Source: Ignavibacteria bacterium (GTDB lineage: Bacteria > Bacteroidota > Ignavibacteria > Kapaibacteriales > UBA4661). Taken from it: a DNA stretch of 64,000 bases. The notes beneath the pieces are model-generated. The model worked only from the letters and a program-made list of their open reading frames with translations, did not search any database and was not told the origin of the DNA. Shown here piece after piece: positions 27,299 to 35,581 of this stretch (position 1 is its first letter; each line of letters opens with the position of its first letter). A program made the position numbers and the translations under genes. The stretch is taken from contig JACVZY010000071.1 in assembly GCA_014654705.1 (NCBI GenBank), positions 29,429-93,428 of the forward strand, in the 5' to 3' direction.

Positions 27299-27429
27299 GT
27301 TTGAAAAAAGTGTCTCCCTCTGAAACTAATTACGAAACTCTTCGTAGGCAATATATTATTTGCCGCGCTTCTTCCTCGCAGGCAATTATTTTTCCTTATT
27401 CTCAACACATACTCATCTGTGGAGCAACC

Positions 27430-28761
27430 ATGCAAGCTACTTTTGCTATCGCCGCCGCCCTTGTTGTCATACTTTTTCGGCAACTTCCCGCGCAAACGGA
27501 CTCGACACATAACCATGCACCAGTGAAAACAATCTCTGCAGATTCGACACTCACCCCTGCTACTGATTCTATGAGCAGTGGCGCACCAAAGCTCTTTCTC
27601 AACTGTACAGGGTGGTGTTTTGAGGATTATGTCAAAACGGAGTTGTCATTTTTCAATTTTGTTCGTGACCGCTTCCAAGCCGATGTACAGCTGCTGATTA
27701 TCCGTCAAGCCACCGGAAGTGATGGTAGCCTTTTTACCGTCAATTTTTTAGGTCAGCATCAATTTCAAGGGATGTCGGATACGCTCACATTTAATCTCGA
27801 CCAATCGGCAAGCGATGAAATGATTCGCAGTGAACTCGCCAAGGTCTTGCAGGCAGGCTTGGTACGCTTTGTGGCAAAAACGCCGCTTCGGAGCAAAATG
27901 TCGTTCACGTTCCCCAAGCGCGAGCAATCAACGATTTCGTCTATCAAAGACGTATGGGATTATTGGACATTTACCATAGGGGCAAACGGAAACACTTCCG
28001 GCGAATCGAATAATCGTTTTATTTGGCTCAATAGCTTTCTCACCGTGCGGCGCATCACTAATGAAAACAAAATCATTGCCAATGGTTTCTTTCGCCGAAA
28101 TTCCAGCGAGTTCACTATTGATGGCGAGCAGTATTTTGCTGCGACTGATTCTTATGGCGCAAATGCGTTATATGCTCACAGCCTCAGCGATCACTGGTCT
28201 CTGGGCGGTTTATACATTGGCGAACACTCTGTTTTCCGGAATATCAATTTTTCCCATCGCATTGCTCCTATCATCGAGTACAACGTCTTTCCGTACACCG
28301 AAAACACCTATCGTCAACTCCGTATTTCCTACGAAGCAGGAGCACAACAGTTGAATTATCTGGAAGAAACGGTGTTCAGTCGGATGCAGGAATTACGTCC
28401 CTATCAGCGTCTGGCTGTATCGCTGGACTTAACACAGCAATGGGGAACCATTTACACAGGAGTGAAAAGTACAAATTTCATTGATAATTTCTCCCAATAT
28501 CGCGTTACATTCGATACGCAACTGAGCTTGCGGCTTGCCGAAGGCTTGTCTATTCAGCTCTACGGCTCGGCTGCTCTGATTCAAGATCAAATCTCGCTTG
28601 CGAAATCCGACCTCAATACCACAACGGTACTGCTGCAAGGACGACAACTGCCGACGAGTTTTTCGTACTGGGCATATTTTGGCATCAATTACACGTTTGG
28701 CTCTATCTACAACTCTATTGTCAACACTCGCTTTAATGGCTTAACCGAGCAGCAGAATTAA
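27430..28761 (+). CDS. Outer-membrane beta-barrel-like protein of unknown function
   Basis: The ATG at 27430 gives a 443-residue protein with a signal peptide (MQATFAIAAALVVILFRQLPA) and then CTGWCFEDYVKTELSFFNFVRDRFQADVQLLI, a lead-in that I associate with a widespread uncharacterised Bacteroidota family. From about residue 175 the sequence alternates hydrophobic and polar residues with many aromatics and ends in aromatic strands, as in beta-barrels. The CTGWC pair could form a disulfide. The earlier in-frame TTG at 27301 adds residues with no family character. No function is known. It is monocistronic between a weak terminator and the GrpB gene. Confidence 0.72.
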   Translation: MQATFAIAAALVVILFRQLPAQTDSTHNHAPVKTISADSTLTPATDSMSSGAPKLFLNCTGWCFEDYVKTELSFFNFVRDRFQADVQLLIIRQATGSDGSLFTVNFLGQHQFQGMSDTLTFNLDQSASDEMIRSELAKVLQAGLVRFVAKTPLRSKMSFTFPKREQSTISSIKDVWDYWTFTIGANGNTSGESNNRFIWLNSFLTVRRITNENKIIANGFFRRNSSEFTIDGEQYFAATDSYGANALYAHSLSDHWSLGGLYIGEHSVFRNINFSHRIAPIIEYNVFPYTENTYRQLRISYEAGAQQLNYLEETVFSRMQELRPYQRLAVSLDLTQQWGTIYTGVKSTNFIDNFSQYRVTFDTQLSLRLAEGLSIQLYGSAALIQDQISLAKSDLNTTTVLLQGRQLPTSFSYWAYFGINYTFGSIYNSIVNTRFNGLTEQQN

Positions 28762-28967: not shown

Positions 28968-29522
28968 ATGCTTATCCAAGAATATCAAGAACGGTGGAAA
29001 GAAGATTTCCACAGCATCAAAACAGTTATTTCGGAAGCACTTGATAATTATGATGTTACCATAGAACATATTGGCAGTACGGCAGTTACTCAGCTTGCAG
29101 CCAAGCCGATTATTGATATTGATGTGGTGTATGCAAAAAGCGACGAATTTGATGCAATCAAGGCAGGCTTAGAGCGCGGCGGCTACGTTCACAAGGGGAA
29201 TCAAGGAATTTCTCAGAGAGAAGTGTTTAAGCGGCATAGTGCGGTGAAAGTACATCCGATTTTGGATTCTATCGCCCATCACCTTTACGTTTGTCCGATT
29301 GATAGCAAAGAATTACAACGGCACATCCTCTTCAGAGATTATCTCATCAAGCATGAAGCCGCACGAGTGCAATATCAAGCCCTCAAATACACAATTGCCG
29401 ATGAAGTGAGCCAAGACCGAAAGAAATATGCGCATGTGAAAGAAGTAAAACTGAGAACATTCGTGGAAGCTATTATCGCAAAAGCTCAAGAGGAGAACAT
29501 CGGAGCATCTTTATCTCGGTGA
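28968..29522 (+). CDS. GrpB family protein (nucleotidyltransferase-like)
   Basis: The 184-residue protein matches the GrpB/UPF0157 family: EYQERWKEDF near the N-terminus, the signature IEHIGSTAVTQLAAKPIIDIDVV (residues about 29-51), HLYVCPIDSKELQRHILFRDYL, and a helical end. The fold belongs to the nucleotidyltransferase superfamily, and the GS-x-DIDV arrangement is the equivalent of its metal site, although the biochemical role is not established. The gene converges on the extradiol dioxygenase, whose stop is 10 bases away on the other strand. The 206 bases before it (28762-28967) contain no convincing gene or RNA. Confidence 0.9.
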   Translation: MLIQEYQERWKEDFHSIKTVISEALDNYDVTIEHIGSTAVTQLAAKPIIDIDVVYAKSDEFDAIKAGLERGGYVHKGNQGISQREVFKRHSAVKVHPILDSIAHHLYVCPIDSKELQRHILFRDYLIKHEAARVQYQALKYTIADEVSQDRKKYAHVKEVKLRTFVEAIIAKAQEENIGASLSR

Positions 29523-29531
29523 ACTGCAATC

Positions 29532-30320
29532 TCACCCCCAAAACCGAAACGCCGCCATTGAAAGATTCTTCCATTGGAATCCGGCGTTTATCTGCTCGTA
29601 CCGGCTGCCCATTGCGCTCACGAAGACAAGCGGCAAGAAGTGCTCCGAGGTGGGATGCGCTTGCCGAAATGTGGGATGCTGGTACAATTCTGCTAGGCGT
29701 TCTGCGTACCCGCCATCATTTGCGCCAGCCGCTAACGTATCCAAAACTAATTTCTCAAAGTCCGCTGCCCATGCGTCCGGCGGCAGTGCCGAGCCGCCAA
29801 AGCGTACAATTTCGTGCCGATTATGCACCAAGCCACCACTTCCGATGAAGAGAACATTTTCTTTCAGAAGCGGTGCAAGCGCTTGTGCGATGTTGGCGTG
29901 ATACGTGGGGTCAAGGCTTTGGTGCAAGGAAATCTGCACCATCGGCACATCTGCCTCTGGAAACATCGTCATCAGCGGAATAAGTGCACCGTGGTCGAGT
30001 TCGGCAAATTTATCAAGCGAAACCGCTACGCCAGCCTTCTGAAGTCGCTCTGCGATGCTCTGTGCTAATACAGGACTACCTTTGGGGGAATATGTGCTAC
30101 GGAACTCTGGTGGAAAGCCCTCATTCGCTTGAACAAGCTGCTGCGCAGTGCTGATTGAGACATTCGGCGCAATCCAATGCCCCGACACCATGACGATAGC
30201 GTCAGGCGTTTGAGGCACAGCGCGTTCACGCACGACGCGAAACATTTCGGGAACGTCAGTACTTTTGAATGCCTCGTAAATAGTGCCGTGCGAGACGAAA
30301 AGAGCGGGTTGAGATTTCAT
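29532..30320 (-). CDS. LigB/DODA-type extradiol dioxygenase (YgiD-like)
   Basis: The 262-residue protein belongs to the class III extradiol ring-cleavage dioxygenases close to 4,5-DOPA dioxygenase (YgiD). Metal-ligand and active-site histidines appear in LFVSHGTIYEA, VMVSGHWIAP, AELDHGALIPLMTMFPEADVP and FIGSGGLVHNR. The family opens catechol rings using Fe2+ and oxygen. It is the last of four closely spaced minus-strand genes (SDR, pirin, SRPBCC, this one). Pirins can have quercetinase activity, so two ring-cleaving candidates sit together, which suggests detoxification of catechols or quinones (inference). Confidence 0.9.
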   Translation of the reverse strand: MKSQPALFVSHGTIYEAFKSTDVPEMFRVVRERAVPQTPDAIVMVSGHWIAPNVSISTAQQLVQANEGFPPEFRSTYSPKGSPVLAQSIAERLQKAGVAVSLDKFAELDHGALIPLMTMFPEADVPMVQISLHQSLDPTYHANIAQALAPLLKENVLFIGSGGLVHNRHEIVRFGGSALPPDAWAADFEKLVLDTLAAGANDGGYAERLAELYQHPTFRQAHPTSEHFLPLVFVSAMGSRYEQINAGFQWKNLSMAAFRFWG

Positions 30321-30374
30321 CTGGTAATGAAGTGCTGGGAAATGTTTGTGGAGAGTTATTGCTGCTCACAATAC

Positions 30375-30887
30375 TTATTGCTGCTCGCAATACCGTTTAA
30401 GTTCAGTATTCATCAACTCAAAGCCTTCGGGCGCATTTTTCATCATGGGCAAATTCCTGATAATAAGCGAGAGCACACCGCGATATTCCTCACGGTTCAC
30501 GACAAGCGTTTTGCCGTTGCCCATGTCTTGCAGTTCAAAAAAATGTTCGCCGTCGAACACACGCGGGAAGCCTGTTTCCGCCAGCCATGCAAAACGTTTA
30601 TTCTCTTCCCAATAGCTCACCAGTGGCGTAAATTCGTAAGGGTCTGTACCCTTCACCGAGAGTTTCAGGTGCAATGTGCCGTGCGGCTTTGCCTCACCGC
30701 CCAAGTACGCTAATTGGCTGTTCCATGCTTTGTAATTCTTGAAATCAACGACGGCGTTCCAGACCTTTTCCGGCGGGGCGTTGATAACGACATCCTTGCG
30801 GATTTCAAACTGTGTGCGGCTGAGTCCGAGAATTGCCAAAAGCGCAATTCCGGCGGAAATAAGGAAGATTCTTTTTGTATTCATCAT
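30375..30887 (-). CDS. SRPBCC-family (START-like) exported or membrane-tethered protein
   Basis: The 170-residue protein starts with a short hydrophobic segment (IFLISAGIALLAILGL), then has the SRPBCC/polyketide-cyclase-like fold signature INAPPEKVWNAVVDFKNYKAWNSQL, and EYRGVLSLIIRNLP near the end. These helix-grip domains hold a hydrophobic ligand. It starts 16 bases after the pirin gene and ends 54 bases before the dioxygenase start, so it is cotranscribed with them and may carry or sequester the same type of aromatic or lipid ligand (inference). Confidence 0.82.
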   Translation of the reverse strand: MMNTKRIFLISAGIALLAILGLSRTQFEIRKDVVINAPPEKVWNAVVDFKNYKAWNSQLAYLGGEAKPHGTLHLKLSVKGTDPYEFTPLVSYWEENKRFAWLAETGFPRVFDGEHFFELQDMGNGKTLVVNREEYRGVLSLIIRNLPMMKNAPEGFELMNTELKRYCEQQ

Positions 30888-30903
30888 TACTGCTCAGTGA
30901 TAA

Positions 30904-31776
30904 TTATGATGTTTTGAAAACAGAAGATGCCTCTAAATGCCCCATTTCACCTTTGCCGTAGCGCAATCGCGTCAGGTGCATTTGCTCGTTAGTGGACATC
31001 ACAAATGGTCCTCCGAAAAGAGTTTGTTCGTTGAAAGGCTTGCCTGTGCCGAGAAGAAAGGTTGCGGAATCGTCGGTTGTCGTAATGTCAATCACACTTC
31101 CTTCACTGCTGAATTTTACGCACGTTGATTGACCATCCGTTTTTTCCAACACTGTTTCGCCCGCAAAAGCTCTACCGCTGACCATCATCACAAAAGATAT
31201 GTTTCCGTCAGGAACGTGGTGTGTAAAGGATGCGTTTGGTTTCATCTGAACATCAAGCAATTCAACATCAGGCAAAGGCTTGATAGCCGCTTGGGTTGTG
31301 CCGTACTGCCCAAGCAATATCCGCACTTCCACATCCGCATTTGGGTGGACGACAGGTACAGCGTGAGAATCTACGTGCATAGCTTTGGGTTCGGCAAATC
31401 TATCTTCCGAGGAGTGATTCAGCCACATCTGTAAACCATGACAGACTTTCCCTTCAATTTCAGGAATTTCTTCGTGTAAAATTCCTATTCCCGCTTGGGT
31501 GAGATGAATTGCTCCGGCTTCAATTCTGCTGTGGTCGCCCAAACTATCCCGATTGATGAATGCACCTTCGCTATCCAAAAACATATACGTCATCACCGAA
31601 AATCCTGCGTGAGGATGGGGCGGAAAGAAGGCTCTCGGCATCCAAAATTCGGTAAGGATGATGAATGGGTCAATGCTTCCTAATTCCGAGGTCAACCCGA
31701 AATTTCTAAAGCCATTTGTTTGTTCCTGAAGGCGCACCACCTTAGCAACTCGCTTGGTTTCAGGTTTGCTATCCAT
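30904..31776 (-). CDS. Pirin family protein (cupin dioxygenase-like)
   Basis: The 290-residue protein has two cupin domains. The N-terminal pirin metal site is complete: FPPHPHAGFSVMTYMF gives two His ligands, and HLTQAGIGILHEEIPE supplies the third His and the Glu. The C-terminal cupin (residues about 170-285) is diverged. Bacterial pirins include quercetin 2,3-dioxygenases and redox-sensing regulators. Its place between an SDR and an SRPBCC protein, in an operon ending with an extradiol dioxygenase, supports a role in flavonoid, catechol or quinone handling (inference). Confidence 0.9.
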   Translation of the reverse strand: MDSKPETKRVAKVVRLQEQTNGFRNFGLTSELGSIDPFIILTEFWMPRAFFPPHPHAGFSVMTYMFLDSEGAFINRDSLGDHSRIEAGAIHLTQAGIGILHEEIPEIEGKVCHGLQMWLNHSSEDRFAEPKAMHVDSHAVPVVHPNADVEVRILLGQYGTTQAAIKPLPDVELLDVQMKPNASFTHHVPDGNISFVMMVSGRAFAGETVLEKTDGQSTCVKFSSEGSVIDITTTDDSATFLLGTGKPFNEQTLFGGPFVMSTNEQMHLTRLRYGKGEMGHLEASSVFKTS

Positions 31777-31826
31777 AAATGTATCAAAAATTCTGTGGAG
31801 AAAAATTTGAAAATGAGCTATTCACC

Positions 31827-32585
31827 TTACAAAATACCGCCATTTGCTTGAATCACCTGCCCCGTTATCCATGCCGTTTCCGGCAGACATAAGGCGAGTA
31901 CCGCTCCTGCCACATCGTTCGGCTGCCCCAAACGACCAAACGGCGTTTGCGCAACAAGTGCTTGCACCATTTCTTGCGGCGCAACCAAACCTTCGGTTTC
32001 CGTCACGCCGGGCGAAACCACATTGACAGAAATACGTTTCGCACCAAGCTCCTTAGCAAGAGAAATGGCGAATTTCTCCAATGCAGATTTTGCTCCGGAA
32101 TACGCGCCACTTGCAATACCGGGCATTGCAGCCGCTCCACTGGAAAGAACAATAATTCGCCCGCCTTCCTTGACGTGATGTGCTGCCTGTTGCAACGCGA
32201 AATAATGCCCTTTCACGGCAGCAAACATTCGGTCGTAGCCATCTTCGGTCATCAATGCCGTTGGCGCAAAGACCGCTTCAGAAAAAGCGTTGGCGATATA
32301 GATGTCTGCTTCGCCGCCAAAGTTTGTAGGCAAAAATTCAAAAACGCTTTTCATTGCGTTTGCGTTGCTTGCGTCGGCTTGCATTGCCACAACGTAAGAG
32401 CTGAACTGCTTTGCTTCCGCTTCGGTCGTTTTGGCGGCATCAGCATTGCTGTTGTAGGTAAAAAGGATATGTGCACCTTCTTTCGCCAGCGCGTGGACAA
32501 TTGCCTTGCCGATACCGCGGCTGCCACCAGTAACGATAACTTTTTTGTTCTCCAGTTTGCCGCTTTGTGTACTTGTCATAGCCAT
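31827..32585 (-). CDS. SDR-family NAD(P)-dependent oxidoreductase
   Basis: The 252-residue protein is a classical short-chain dehydrogenase: the cofactor loop VTGGSRGIGKAI (residues about 18-29), the catalytic Ser in IIVLSSGAAAMPG and the YSGAKSALEKFA Tyr/Lys pair. The usual NNAG strand is replaced by ANAFSEAV. Similar enzymes act on quinones, ketones and small aldehydes; the exact substrate is unknown. It is the first gene of a four-gene minus-strand unit and lies divergent from an HxlR regulator; a promoter with an operator-like palindrome stands just upstream. A second ATG at 32579 is also possible. Confidence 0.9.
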   Translation of the reverse strand: MAMTSTQSGKLENKKVIVTGGSRGIGKAIVHALAKEGAHILFTYNSNADAAKTTEAEAKQFSSYVVAMQADASNANAMKSVFEFLPTNFGGEADIYIANAFSEAVFAPTALMTEDGYDRMFAAVKGHYFALQQAAHHVKEGGRIIVLSSGAAAMPGIASGAYSGAKSALEKFAISLAKELGAKRISVNVVSPGVTETEGLVAPQEMVQALVAQTPFGRLGQPNDVAGAVLALCLPETAWITGQVIQANGGIL

Positions 32586-32631
32586 AGTATTCTTCTCTCG
32601 TTTTTGTTTTTGAATGAATTGATGGTATATT

Positions 32632-32664
32632 CAAACTTACTAATAGTCACTATCCTTTAGCAAG
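32632..32664 (-). promoter_or_regulatory. Promoter-like sequence for the SDR operon, with operator palindrome
   Basis: Read on the minus strand, CTTG (32664-32661) is followed after 21 bases by TAAGTTTG (32639-32632), a match to TTTG-N19..21-TAnnTTTG with one mismatch. The palindrome atagt-c-actat (32643-32653) lies within the spacer, where a bound regulator would block polymerase. Confidence 0.45.
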
Positions 32665-32678
32665 TAGTTGCCTAAATG

Positions 32679-32690
32679 GATACTAGTATC
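32679..32690. promoter_or_regulatory. Second operator-like palindrome in the HxlR/SDR gap
   Basis: The 12-base sequence gatactagtatc is a perfect palindrome. Like the site at 32643-32653 it contains TACT/AGTA-type half-sites, and it lies about 80 bases before the HxlR start. The two together suggest divergent control by the HxlR protein. Confidence 0.4.
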
Positions 32691-32769
32691 GTAAAAGATA
32701 GCTTTTGACTACGTAAGCGATAGAAGACGTAAATAAATTTCATCATAAGCATTATTTGAGGAAAAACCG

Positions 32770-33198
32770 ATGACTAAGGTCGTACAAAATAGCCGTAAAT
32801 TTACTGCAGCCGTGTTTTCGCCGCCGGAATCCAGTGGGGCGACGTGTTCGCAAAAGAGTGATATTTCTTGCCCTGTGCAATTAACGTTGGAACTGTTGGG
32901 CGGGAGGTGGAAATTGGCGATTATTCACAGCCTCTACAACGGCATGAAACGCTTTAAGGAGCTGGAGCGCGACGTAGCGGGCGTTACGCCCAAAATGCTC
33001 ACCAAGCAGCTCAAAGACTTGGAAGCAAACGACATTGTACATCGGGAATATCACGCCACCATCCCGCCGACGGTGGAATATAGCCTCACCGAATACGGAC
33101 ATAGCGTGGTACCGCTTGTGCTGGAAATAAAAAAATGGGGCTTGCAGCATCAGGAGCGGATGAGTAAGCCGAAAGGAAAGAAGGTCAAGAAGACTTGA
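32770..33198 (+). CDS. HxlR-family transcriptional regulator
   Basis: The 142-residue protein has the HxlR winged-helix core: CPVQLTLELLGGRWKLAII, RFKELERDVAGVTPKMLTKQLKDLEANDIV and VEYSLTEYGHSVVPLV. Cys34 is in the conserved Cys-Pro-Val position, which acts as a redox or electrophile sensor in YodB and HypR; a second cysteine lies at residue 26. The gene is divergent from the SDR/pirin/SRPBCC/dioxygenase unit with a 184-base gap containing two palindromes. It is likely the thiol-based regulator of that unit (inference; thiol-sensing HxlR proteins controlling quinone-handling genes are known in Bacillus). Confidence 0.9.
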   Translation: MTKVVQNSRKFTAAVFSPPESSGATCSQKSDISCPVQLTLELLGGRWKLAIIHSLYNGMKRFKELERDVAGVTPKMLTKQLKDLEANDIVHREYHATIPPTVEYSLTEYGHSVVPLVLEIKKWGLQHQERMSKPKGKKVKKT

Positions 33199-33334: not shown

Positions 33335-35581
33335 ATGATGCACCATACCATGATGCGAAGCTCTATCACAGGTTTTCTTTCTTTCCTGTTTTTCATCGGC
33401 TCTTCGGCAGCCGCATTTTCTCAAAACACTATCGTTTGGCAGCAGACGAGCGGTCCGGCGGGTGGCAGCGTAAACGCTTTTGCAGAAGCACAGACCGGCT
33501 TGGGTTACACACATCAATATGCCGCGACTAATGGCGGCTTGTACACAGCAAATTCATCCGAACGCGGTAGAACGTGGAAACGGGCGGGCTTAACGGGTCT
33601 TTCCATCAAAGATGTCTCCGCATATTCAAACCACGTCATCGCTGTTGCAGACACATCGCCGCAAAAAGTTTATTATTCCGATAATGCCGGACAAGCATGG
33701 CGAGAAATCGCTGCGCCGGCTCGTATATTCTCGGCAGTGTTGTTGCCAGTTTCGGAGAGGTCGCCCGCGATTGTCATCAGCACGGCTCAGGGCGTGTATC
33801 GCTACGAAAACGCACAATGGAAGCAGCTTGCAACGGCGAGTACACTGGGAATACAGCAATTCGCAGGCAAAGTCTTGTGCAATTCTAAAGGACATATCTT
33901 TGTCAATGCCGGAGCAAGCCTCTGGCGCTCCACCGACGACGGCGCAACGTGGAAAAAAGTAGCAAATCATTTCCCACAACAACTTTCTGTGGCAATAAAT
34001 CAGCAAGACGAAATGGTGATTGCCTACAACTGCGGAGGTATTTTTCGTTCCACCGACAACGGCGAAACGTGGCAAGATATTCGCTATAACAGTACCGAAC
34101 TCTGCATACATTCTGTCGGCATCGCCTTCGACGGCACTATTTTTTGCGCACCGTTCCAAGGCGGAGTCAAAAAACTCGTCTCCGGTGTTGCGGGTTGGAG
34201 TTGGTTGCCAATTTCTGAGGGCTTACCCCAATATAAATATCCCAATAGAACAGTTGTCAACGAACCTTCGGTGATGTTTGTCAACTCCGGAATGCTTGCC
34301 GATTTGAGTATCGGTACGGATGTTTTTATTTCGCGTATTGAAGGCTCAACTGCGCCTGCCATGAGACTGAATCAAGAAAAAAACACGTGGGAAGCGATTG
34401 GCACAACATCATTATTAAACAGTAACATTCTCCAGTTGAAAACTGCTGCCGACGGCACATTATACGCCGCAACAGAACAAGGAATGTTTCGTTCGTCCGA
34501 TACCGATAACGGCTCGTTTTGGGTTTCGATACAAAACGATTTGCCTGCGATACCACGACAAGCGTTGGAAATAGCGCAGGACGGCTCCATTATTGTCGGC
34601 ACTACTCCGAGCGGTGCATATCGTTCTACCACACGAGGGGCATCGTGGGTGAAAATAAGCTCCTTGCCATCTGTGCAAACAATAAGCAAGCACAGTGACG
34701 GCACGCTCATAGCAGCATCGGGTTCCGACGGGCTGTATCAGTCAAGTGATAACGGGGCTTCGTGGACAAAAATCATCACTGACCCTACGGATTATTATTC
34801 GTCTGCATTTTATTCTTCCGATAAAAAAGCACTCTTTGGAAGTTCCTTCAAAGGACTTATGCGGTCGGCTGATGCGGGTAAAACATGGACGAATGTTTTT
34901 GCGAACGCCCCAGCACAAGCAAAAGAAATATTTGCTTACGCCTTGTCACCAACGGGACAAATTGTGATTGGCACACGCGACAGCGGTATGTATCGCTCCC
35001 CTGACAATGGTGCATCGTGGATACGAATTGGTCTGGAAGCTCTTCAAAAAAATCCGACCGCTCCGTATTCCATAACAAGTTGTGTCATCAACTCACAAGG
35101 ACATATTTTTGTGACCACCGCCGGTAGTGGTATGTACCGCTCAACGAATAACGGTTCGTCATGGGAGCAACTCAATGCAGGATTATCAACCACGTGGACT
35201 ACCGCCCTCAGTTTTGCTTCTGACGGCTCGTTGTTTATTGGCACACAAGGAAGCGGTGTATTTCGCAGCAATAATGCACAAACTTCTGTCCAAAATAATG
35301 CAGCACAACAATCCCAGCTATCTCTCCGCGTCTCTCCTAATCCCGTCTCCGACGGTGCTGTGATAGGCTACACACTAGCAACACGTTCATTTGTGACGAT
35401 GGATATTTTCACTCCGCTTGGGCAAACGGTAGCCAATCTTGTCTCTGCTACGCAAGAAATTGGTGAGCATAGCATACAAGTACCTTCTTCTATTCTTAGC
35501 ACTCTGGCAAATGGCGCGTACTTCTGCCGCTTGAGAGCAGGCAATAGCGTCCGTATCATTCCACTCAATGTGCGGCGATAA
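33335..35581 (+). CDS. Secreted Asp-box/YCF48-like beta-propeller protein with T9SS sorting domain
   Basis: The 748-residue protein has a signal peptide (FLSFLFFIGSSAAAFS before QNT). The body is made of beta-propeller blades carrying Asp-box motifs of the form S-x-D/N-x-G-x-S/T-W: STDDGATWKKV, STDNGETWQDI, SSDNGASWTKI, SADAGKTWTNV, SPDNGASWIRI and STNNGSSWEQL. The last 80 residues are a T9SS type A sorting domain (RVSPNPVSDGAVIGYTL, FCRLRAG). No glycosidase catalytic residues are apparent, so it is more likely a binding or structural surface protein. Two ATGs at 33335 and 33350 are both possible. A hairpin terminator follows. Confidence 0.86.
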   Translation: MMHHTMMRSSITGFLSFLFFIGSSAAAFSQNTIVWQQTSGPAGGSVNAFAEAQTGLGYTHQYAATNGGLYTANSSERGRTWKRAGLTGLSIKDVSAYSNHVIAVADTSPQKVYYSDNAGQAWREIAAPARIFSAVLLPVSERSPAIVISTAQGVYRYENAQWKQLATASTLGIQQFAGKVLCNSKGHIFVNAGASLWRSTDDGATWKKVANHFPQQLSVAINQQDEMVIAYNCGGIFRSTDNGETWQDIRYNSTELCIHSVGIAFDGTIFCAPFQGGVKKLVSGVAGWSWLPISEGLPQYKYPNRTVVNEPSVMFVNSGMLADLSIGTDVFISRIEGSTAPAMRLNQEKNTWEAIGTTSLLNSNILQLKTAADGTLYAATEQGMFRSSDTDNGSFWVSIQNDLPAIPRQALEIAQDGSIIVGTTPSGAYRSTTRGASWVKISSLPSVQTISKHSDGTLIAASGSDGLYQSSDNGASWTKIITDPTDYYSSAFYSSDKKALFGSSFKGLMRSADAGKTWTNVFANAPAQAKEIFAYALSPTGQIVIGTRDSGMYRSPDNGASWIRIGLEALQKNPTAPYSITSCVINSQGHIFVTTAGSGMYRSTNNGSSWEQLNAGLSTTWTTALSFASDGSLFIGTQGSGVFRSNNAQTSVQNNAAQQSQLSLRVSPNPVSDGAVIGYTLATRSFVTMDIFTPLGQTVANLVSATQEIGEHSIQVPSSILSTLANGAYFCRLRAGNSVRIIPLNVRR

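Follow-up and report, generated by a model that had tools for sequence, protein, structure and literature searches.

The locus studied here raises the question of whether an HxlR-family regulator gene and the four genes facing away from it belong together, and what such a unit would be for. They lie in a stretch of 64,000 nucleotides (nt), referred to as the window, whose source organism is by inference of the Kapabacteria type. A sequence-only reading of the window had presented four closely spaced minus-strand genes with a divergent HxlR gene, and had proposed an electrophile or aromatic detoxification unit. The balance of evidence tips towards the five genes being a self-contained, locally regulated defence unit against quinone/catechol-type electrophiles, which would be governed by a one-cysteine HxlR protein. 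Detoxification is pointed to by the conserved gene order, an operator-like intergenic block and other pairs of HxlR and detoxification genes.

Gene content of the locus

Five intact open reading frames (ORFs) were found at the positions which that reading had assigned to them. They are listed below together with the intergenic block.

29532-30320, minus strand: LigB/DODA-type class III extradiol dioxygenase, 262 amino acids (PF02900, 99 bits)
30375-30887, minus strand: SRPBCC (helix-grip) protein, 170 amino acids (Polyketide_cyc2, PF10604, 44 bits)
30904-31776, minus strand: pirin with two cupin domains, 290 amino acids (Pirin, PF02678, 62 bits; Pirin_C, PF05726, 49 bits)
31827-32585, minus strand: short-chain dehydrogenase/reductase (SDR), 252 amino acids (adh_short_C2, PF13561, 151 bits)
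32640-32710, no strand: conserved intergenic block, predicted operator/promoter (four-genome alignment and bipartite motif)
32770-33198, plus strand: HxlR-family regulator, 142 amino acids (PF01638, 100.4 bits, cut-off 20.8)

All five proteins exceed the curated Pfam cut-offs, and the layout described from the letters is thereby borne out. The minus-strand genes are separated by 50 nt (SDR-pirin), 16 nt (pirin-SRPBCC) and 54 nt (SRPBCC-LigB), and likely form one transcript. The HxlR and SDR genes are divergent, 184 nt apart. At the other end, a GrpB-family gene (28968-29522, plus strand) is convergent with LigB, the two ends lying 9 nt apart.

Conservation of the unit in related genomes

The window's own genome (G000) was compared with 60 others, giving 61 genomes; fetched loci L092-L097 and L099-L102 were left out of the neighbourhood analysis. 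All five genes occur in order in two of the 61, G000 and G007 (loci L083/L104), which belong to the same genus. Between them the SDR proteins are 76% identical, the pirins 67%, the SRPBCC proteins 72%, the LigB proteins 60% and the HxlR proteins 70%. Gene order in relatives had been suggested as a check on the proposed unit, and it is thus kept in one relative.

Partial forms also occur. In G002 (L086), HxlR is divergent from pirin-SRPBCC; the SDR is absent there, a LigB match is absent genome-wide, and the contig ends 485 bases past SRPBCC. In G001, one contig (L085) carries HxlR and the SDR start, and a second (L084) has the SDR directly followed by the C-terminal half of LigB; the stretch matching window positions 29985-31826 (1842 base pairs, covering pirin, SRPBCC and half of LigB) is absent. 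The SDR stop abuts the LigB half at about 4297-4300 of L084 (contig C559). An assembly fault may lie behind this gap, the assembly having about 570 contigs; against such a fault, 147-amino-acid LigB C-terminal halves are listed from two contigs, one of the length concerned (P0150) and one other (P0220). In G017 and G051, from another family of the order, the arrangement is MarR-DoxX-pirin-SRPBCC, and an HxlR gene precedes pirin by about 4-6 kb; the HxlR protein of G017 has Asn in place of the Cys discussed below.

The intergenic block

Within 32640-32710, 50 of 71 alignment columns are identical in four genomes of the genus (G000, G001, G002 and G007), versus 28 of 141 in the remaining aligned gap. 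Between the window and G007 the block is identical at 56 of 71 positions, above each of the five genes (65-74% of nucleotides: HxlR 270/384, SDR 548/744, pirin 560/844, SRPBCC 376/507, LigB 500/768). It is kept in G002 despite the missing SDR and LigB. The block largely overlaps 32632-32690, which had been proposed as the stretch bound by the regulator, and is predicted to be an operator/promoter. Three elements lie within it.

32660-32668: GCAAGTAGT
32679-32690: palindrome GATACTAGTATC
32693-32702: AAAAGATAGC

The bipartite motif CAAGTAGT-N(9-13)-TACTNGTAT occurs exactly once in each of the four genomes, always at the unit locus; it has no match in the other four of the eight genomes of the genus, and the reversed control also gave none. 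Allowing up to two mismatches, the palindrome was found twice in the window versus 0.80 expected, which is not above chance.

These results bear on whether the neighbourhood is accidental, i.e., four unrelated stress genes beside an HxlR regulator with another target. The full order in 2 of 61 genomes and the piecemeal absences in G001 and G002 would fit such an accident. Nevertheless, we consider it very improbable, given an order conserved at 60-76% protein identity, a conserved block whose motif is found nowhere else in the four genomes, and the fact that in other families, too, HxlR genes neighbour LigB, pirin, SRPBCC or DoxX. With all five genes in the same order in G007 and conserved DNA between the divergent genes, the arrangement goes beyond chance.

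The HxlR regulator and its cysteine

The closest Protein Data Bank (PDB) match of the HxlR protein is Bacillus subtilis HypR (YybR, 4a5m), and its Cys34, within SCPV, aligns with Cys14 of HypR. The only other cysteine, Cys26, is shared solely with the protein of G001 in an alignment of eight proteins. In the window protein and in all six of its nearest relatives among the proteins compared (G001, G002, G007, G195, G005 and L108), a cysteine precedes Pro-Val; in five of these seven it is the sole cysteine.

Cys49 of HypR is its second cysteine, with a role in an intersubunit disulfide. The window protein has Val here and lacks a C-terminal cysteine as well. A HypR-type disulfide switch was rejected because the Cys49 partner is missing, and a YodB-type switch because the C-terminal partner (Cys101/Cys108) is missing; with both absent, a one-cysteine mechanism remains. 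Of the claim that Cys34 sits in a redox-sensing position, the position itself therefore holds, through its alignment with HypR Cys14, while the partner cysteines of HypR and YodB do not accompany it. By analogy, alkylation of Cys34 (as for QsrR Cys5) or an intersubunit disulfide through Cys34 are candidate options.

Alternatively, the regulator could be of a ligand-binding or aldehyde-sensing type in which Cys34 is no sensor, and the operon would respond to a metabolite. HxlR itself is called more specific to aldehyde detoxification in the available part of PMC6943732, the HypR and YodB partner cysteines are missing, and the next closest HxlR protein, that of G018, has Leu at this position yet adjoins a pirin gene. 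Nevertheless, while the remainder of the N-terminus varies, the window protein and its six nearest all retain the cysteine before Pro-Val, and five further proteins of the 26 HxlR proteins have it before Pro-Val/Ile (12 in all), compared with five that have Asn or Thr and two that have Leu, the rest being without such a motif. We regard a non-sensing Cys34 as improbable.

A tree was built from 26 of the 27 collected HxlR proteins (L134 was left out), with seven labelled as operator-bearing and G037 unlabelled. The four proteins of the genus form a clade (96/99), and L108 groups with G037 (96/94). A single clade of operator-bearing proteins was tried and is unsupported, three changes being needed on this tree.

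Similar sites at other HxlR genes

The upstream regions (300 bases, plus 60 inside the gene) of 27 HxlR-family ORFs, taken as longest frames from the fetched loci, were searched for a perfect ACTT-N4-AAGT. It is present in four of the 27, while 0.31 were expected from single-base shuffles and 0.28 from the rate over all loci. All four carry the longer TACTT-N4-AAGTA between HxlR and a divergent gene.

G195: HxlR divergent from DoxX_2, LigB and Dabb, TACTT-N4-AAGTA in the gap
G005: HxlR divergent from DoxX_2, TACTT-N4-AAGTA in the gap
G037: HxlR divergent from OYE-type Oxidored_FMN, followed by a DoxX-like ORF cut by the locus end, TACTT-N4-AAGTA in the gap
L108 (Saprospirales): HxlR divergent from SRPBCC and SnoaL_4, TACTT-N4-AAGTA in the gap

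The 14-mer TACTTTTGCAAGTA is common to G005 and, on the opposite strand, to L108. The G005 locus (L090:9183-10063), where HxlR stands opposite DoxX with a perfect CTACTTTTGCAAGTAG palindrome between them, is a minimal regulatory pair. The HxlR protein of G037 has Cys-Ser-Leu. In the 1.71 Mb of fetched loci (a figure that counts overlaps, two of the four HxlR sites having been fetched twice), TACTT-N4-AAGTA has eight matches, of which six are the four HxlR sites and two lie elsewhere (L100, L101).

Two more neighbourhoods of HxlR and pirin are tandem, not divergent. In G018 the pirin gene follows about 0.7 kb after HxlR. On a Hymenobacter psoromatis plasmid (CP014769, L204:4014-6484), HxlR, pirin and a flavin mononucleotide-dependent azoreductase stand in series; this pirin is 41% identical to that of the window, and both it and the HxlR protein are annotated there as 'hypothetical protein'.

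From these sites, the arrangement of regulator and operator seems to be reused with different cassettes. A wider reading would make the one-cysteine HxlR and its operator a portable 'socket' for quinone-defence cassettes in Bacteroidota and Kapabacteria (SDR-pirin-SRPBCC-LigB, pirin-SRPBCC, SRPBCC-SnoaL, DoxX-LigB-Dabb, OYE-DoxX and DoxX), and the conserved, membrane-anchored SRPBCC protein a new quinol/quinone-binding component of bacterial electrophile defence. We put this forward tentatively, as a possibility that is more doubtful than the defence unit itself.

The enzymes and the SRPBCC protein

The AlphaFold model of LigB has a predicted local distance difference test (pLDDT) score of 94.3. 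Its best fold match is beet DODA (8in2, template modelling (TM) score of 0.88), followed by E. coli YgiD (2pw6, 0.82), and further matches include aminophenol dioxygenase and LigAB. In an alignment of 19 rows, H11, D109, H110 and E226 are invariant, and H48, H166, H222 and H227 nearly so (H48, H166 and H227 at 90% or more). The LigB/DODA-type assignment made from the letters is accordingly upheld by the PF02900 score, the DODA fold match and the conserved His/Glu site. The YgiD/4,5-DOPA extradiol dioxygenase equivalog (NCBIfam NF007914) was tried and rejected, at 132.3 bits against a cut-off of 233.

The best PDB match of the pirin is human pirin (115.7 bits), and H54, H56, H101 and E103 align with its His-x-His and His-x-Glu, which we take to be the iron-binding residues of the human protein. 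This agrees with the full metal site that had been claimed. The SDR carries TGGSRGIG (cofactor) and YSGAK (Tyr-x-x-x-Lys), and its closest PDB match is tetrahydroxynaphthalene reductase (1ja9, 139 bits), which is weak evidence for a polyphenol-type substrate.

For the SRPBCC protein, the model (pLDDT 90.1) places a helix (4-22) before the helix-grip domain. The 50 fold matches listed are PYL receptors, norcoclaurine synthase, PR-10 and some bacterial proteins without known function, at TM scores of about 0.5-0.65, which speak for the fold only; the profile against PDB sequences gave a single match, at chance level. A hydrophobic N-terminus and an FDGEHFF motif run through 22 aligned rows. Because this hydrophobic stretch is present throughout, helix 4-22 is predicted to be a membrane anchor, and the protein is probably membrane-anchored by it.

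The same enzymes could be read as a catabolic module, in which an aromatic compound (e.g., a flavonoid or a catecholate siderophore fragment) is degraded as a source of carbon or iron. LigB, pirin and SDR could be successive polyphenol steps, the tetrahydroxynaphthalene reductase match would fit, and Bacillus CatE is active in siderophore metabolism too, according to the available part of PMC6212828. Yet among the ten ORFs scanned at 26.3-36.2 kb (the search was confined to these, and one of them, 27301-28761, matched no family), matches to hydrolases, decarboxylases, aldolases or transporters are absent, and what the cassettes at other HxlR genes have in common are single detoxification-type genes (DoxX, OYE), not a pathway. 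Catabolism is thus an unlikely explanation, and defence against electrophiles is the reading retained.

The LigB subfamily

With a profile built mainly of window-type proteins, 395 genomes of the phylum were searched. Scores above 400 bits were obtained in three of them (G195, G000 and G007), the next of the 136 matching genomes reaching 196 bits. In the order of G195, two of 291 genomes pass an E-value of 1e-80, the second being G479, whose LigB protein resembles P0228 at its start (37% identity); among the ORFs shown at that locus, an HxlR or pirin match is absent. In one large family of 394 genomes, no window-type LigB was found at an E-value of 1e-75, an uninformative result given that the search had no positive.

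In a tree of 41 chosen proteins, the window-type proteins together with P0228 form one clade (18 rows, 100/98) and 20 canonical proteins another (100/99), with P0232, P0236 and L172 outside both. Canonical DODA identity was rejected for the window protein by score and by tree. These sequence comparisons place the window LigB in a rare subfamily, distinct from the phylum's canonical DODA.

Canonical DODA loci served as a control: within 1.5 kb, 47 loci (43 distinct) had HxlR once (L169), pirin twice (L178 and L181) and SDR three times. This control is narrow, the distance between HxlR and LigB in the window being 2.4 kb, and four of the 47 loci (L011, L016, L028 and L188) gave no LigB ORF under the filter used. 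The two genomes with pirin near DODA both belong to family f29.

Neighbourhoods of the SRPBCC family

The search for SRPBCC homologues found 209, of which the best 120 were listed, and 60 genomic loci were obtained. Eighteen loci (L103-L120, including those of G002, G007, G017 and G051) have at least 55% identity. Within 3.5 kb of these, there are eight with pirin, six with MarR, three with HxlR, two with LysR (a third, at 22 bits, was excluded) and four with DoxX; 7 of the 18 have shortened flanks. In the 42 distant loci (at most 44% identity), the corresponding counts are 0, 1, 0, 2 and 0. This control is biased, since some neighbour queries were drawn from the close loci and the distant ones belong to other taxa. 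SRPBCC thus repeatedly accompanies pirin or DoxX, with regulators of three families.

The SRPBCC loci led to 16 genomes (14 by close loci, two by distant ones), of which ten have a LigB-family match, all at 199 bits or below; therefore, SRPBCC and window-type LigB seldom travel together. A family of 119-amino-acid proteins lies near SRPBCC in two MarR clusters of Bacteroidota (L119:6701-7060 and L106:1689-2042), the L119 member, from Algoriphagus lacus, having no Pfam match. It is possibly a further unnamed part of such units.

Proposed mechanism and points against it

Under the preferred reading, HxlR would bind the shared intergenic site and repress both the SDR-pirin-SRPBCC-LigB operon and its own gene. 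A quinone-like electrophile would modify Cys34 and release HxlR from the DNA. The SDR would then reduce a carbonyl or quinone of the inducing compound, the catechol- or quinol-type ring so formed would be opened oxidatively by pirin and LigB, and the SRPBCC protein, probably anchored in the membrane, would bind or present the hydrophobic substrate. Repression over activation, the cysteine chemistry, the inducer and the enzyme substrates are all inferred.

Several observations weigh against this reading. The complete set is limited to two genomes of one genus, and G001 keeps HxlR and SDR without pirin, SRPBCC and half of LigB, which means that the unit can be dispensed with or that the SDR functions by itself. 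Each of six genomes has TACTT-N4-AAGTA at 2-12 places, versus 12-24 for the reversed control, and the window site has no exact copy of it, only the right arm CAAGTAGT; the motif being unspecific alone, what counts for the argument is where it lies, together with the longer bipartite motif. The cysteine before Pro-Val/Ile is not peculiar to operator-bearing proteins (12 of 26 have it), these proteins do not form one supported clade, and the G018 protein, 49% identical to that of the window, adjoins pirin with its Leu. The SDR substrate is not readable from sequence. By analogy with HypR, which is oxidation-activated (PMC6943732, available part), HxlR could also be an activator.

The proposal of an electrophile or aromatic detoxification unit nonetheless keeps its support from the gene order in G007, the conserved block and the similar sites at HxlR genes facing DoxX, OYE, LigB or SRPBCC; what it loses is the novelty of the effector set.

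Other features of the window

A BNR/sortilin-type propeller protein of 748 amino acids (33335-35581) adjoins HxlR and lies outside the unit; it has a weak Por secretion tail (20 bits versus a cut-off of 27). An Rfam scan of the window gave zero RNA families.

Comparison with known systems

Model bacteria meet quinone and catechol stress with genes that are dispersed and answer to several different regulators. In the window, effectors of the E. coli type (pirin, DODA-like) would form a single operon controlled by a regulator of the Bacillus type, in a group without cultured members. The locus thereby offers a regulator-operator pair open to testing, and a compact gene set from which functions could be assigned to pirins and the conserved SRPBCC family.

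According to the available part of PMC5031710, the E. coli LysR-type regulator YhaJ binds the promoters of ygiD (DODA), yhaK and yhhW (pirin-type) and yqjF, within a regulon (yqjF, yhaK, yhhW, ygiD, ybiJ and yceP) of the dinitrotoluene (DNT) response. The same part reports that yqjF is induced by hydroquinone and catechol too, that YhhW is a pirin with quercetinase activity, and that YgiD has DODA activity in vitro (PMC5031710). The likeness to the window lies in pirin-type and DODA-family genes under one regulator. However, that regulator is LysR and not HxlR, the promoters are separate, SDR and SRPBCC are not among the YhaJ genes described in that part, and the window LigB falls below the YgiD equivalog cut-off (132 of 233 bits). 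YqjF is presumably DoxX-like.

In B. subtilis, catDE is repressed by CatR and YodB together with Fur, and its product CatE is a catechol 2,3-dioxygenase (PMC6212828, available part). The available part of PMC6798810 includes dioxygenases and quinone reductases in the QsrR/YodB regulons, and describes alkylation of QsrR Cys5 and the YodB C-terminal partner Cys101/Cys108. In that of PMC6943732, HypR Cys14 and CatR Cys7 are modified under allicin, and HypR controls HypO, a flavin disulfide reductase. YodB and CatR of B. subtilis, QsrR of Staphylococcus aureus and the window have in common an HxlR (MarR/DUF24) family regulator over a ring-cleaving dioxygenase. They differ in that pirin and SRPBCC are not among the regulon genes described in those parts and that the YodB C-terminal cysteines are absent in the window. 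CatE is not known to be LigB-type. As for HypR, its Cys14 aligns with Cys34, whereas its Cys49 is Val in the window protein.

Divergent layouts with LysR are also found in Proteobacteria: on Rhizobium NZ_CP020951, facing DODA-GST-DoxX-oxidoreductase, and on the E. coli plasmid NZ_MW574939, facing alkene reductase-pirin-isochorismatase. Both resemble the window in a divergent regulator and in DODA or pirin with electrophile-handling genes, yet they differ in the LysR regulator, in having DODA and pirin apart, and in that SRPBCC is not annotated. A mostly open-access literature search returned nothing on pirin with HxlR and a dioxygenase, on HxlR with pirin, on an operon of DoxX, pirin and dioxygenase, or on DODA with LysR and DoxX; for SRPBCC with pirin it gave a single paper, on a Streptomyces vector.

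The suggestion of an undescribed unit therefore stands in part: the effector set has a precedent in YhaJ, while its arrangement as an operon, its control by HxlR and its SRPBCC partner look new. Pirin and DODA under one aromatic-responsive regulator, and HxlR over a dioxygenase, are each already known; what looks new is the union of these effectors in one HxlR operon, with a conserved SRPBCC partner, a rare LigB subfamily and varied cassettes.

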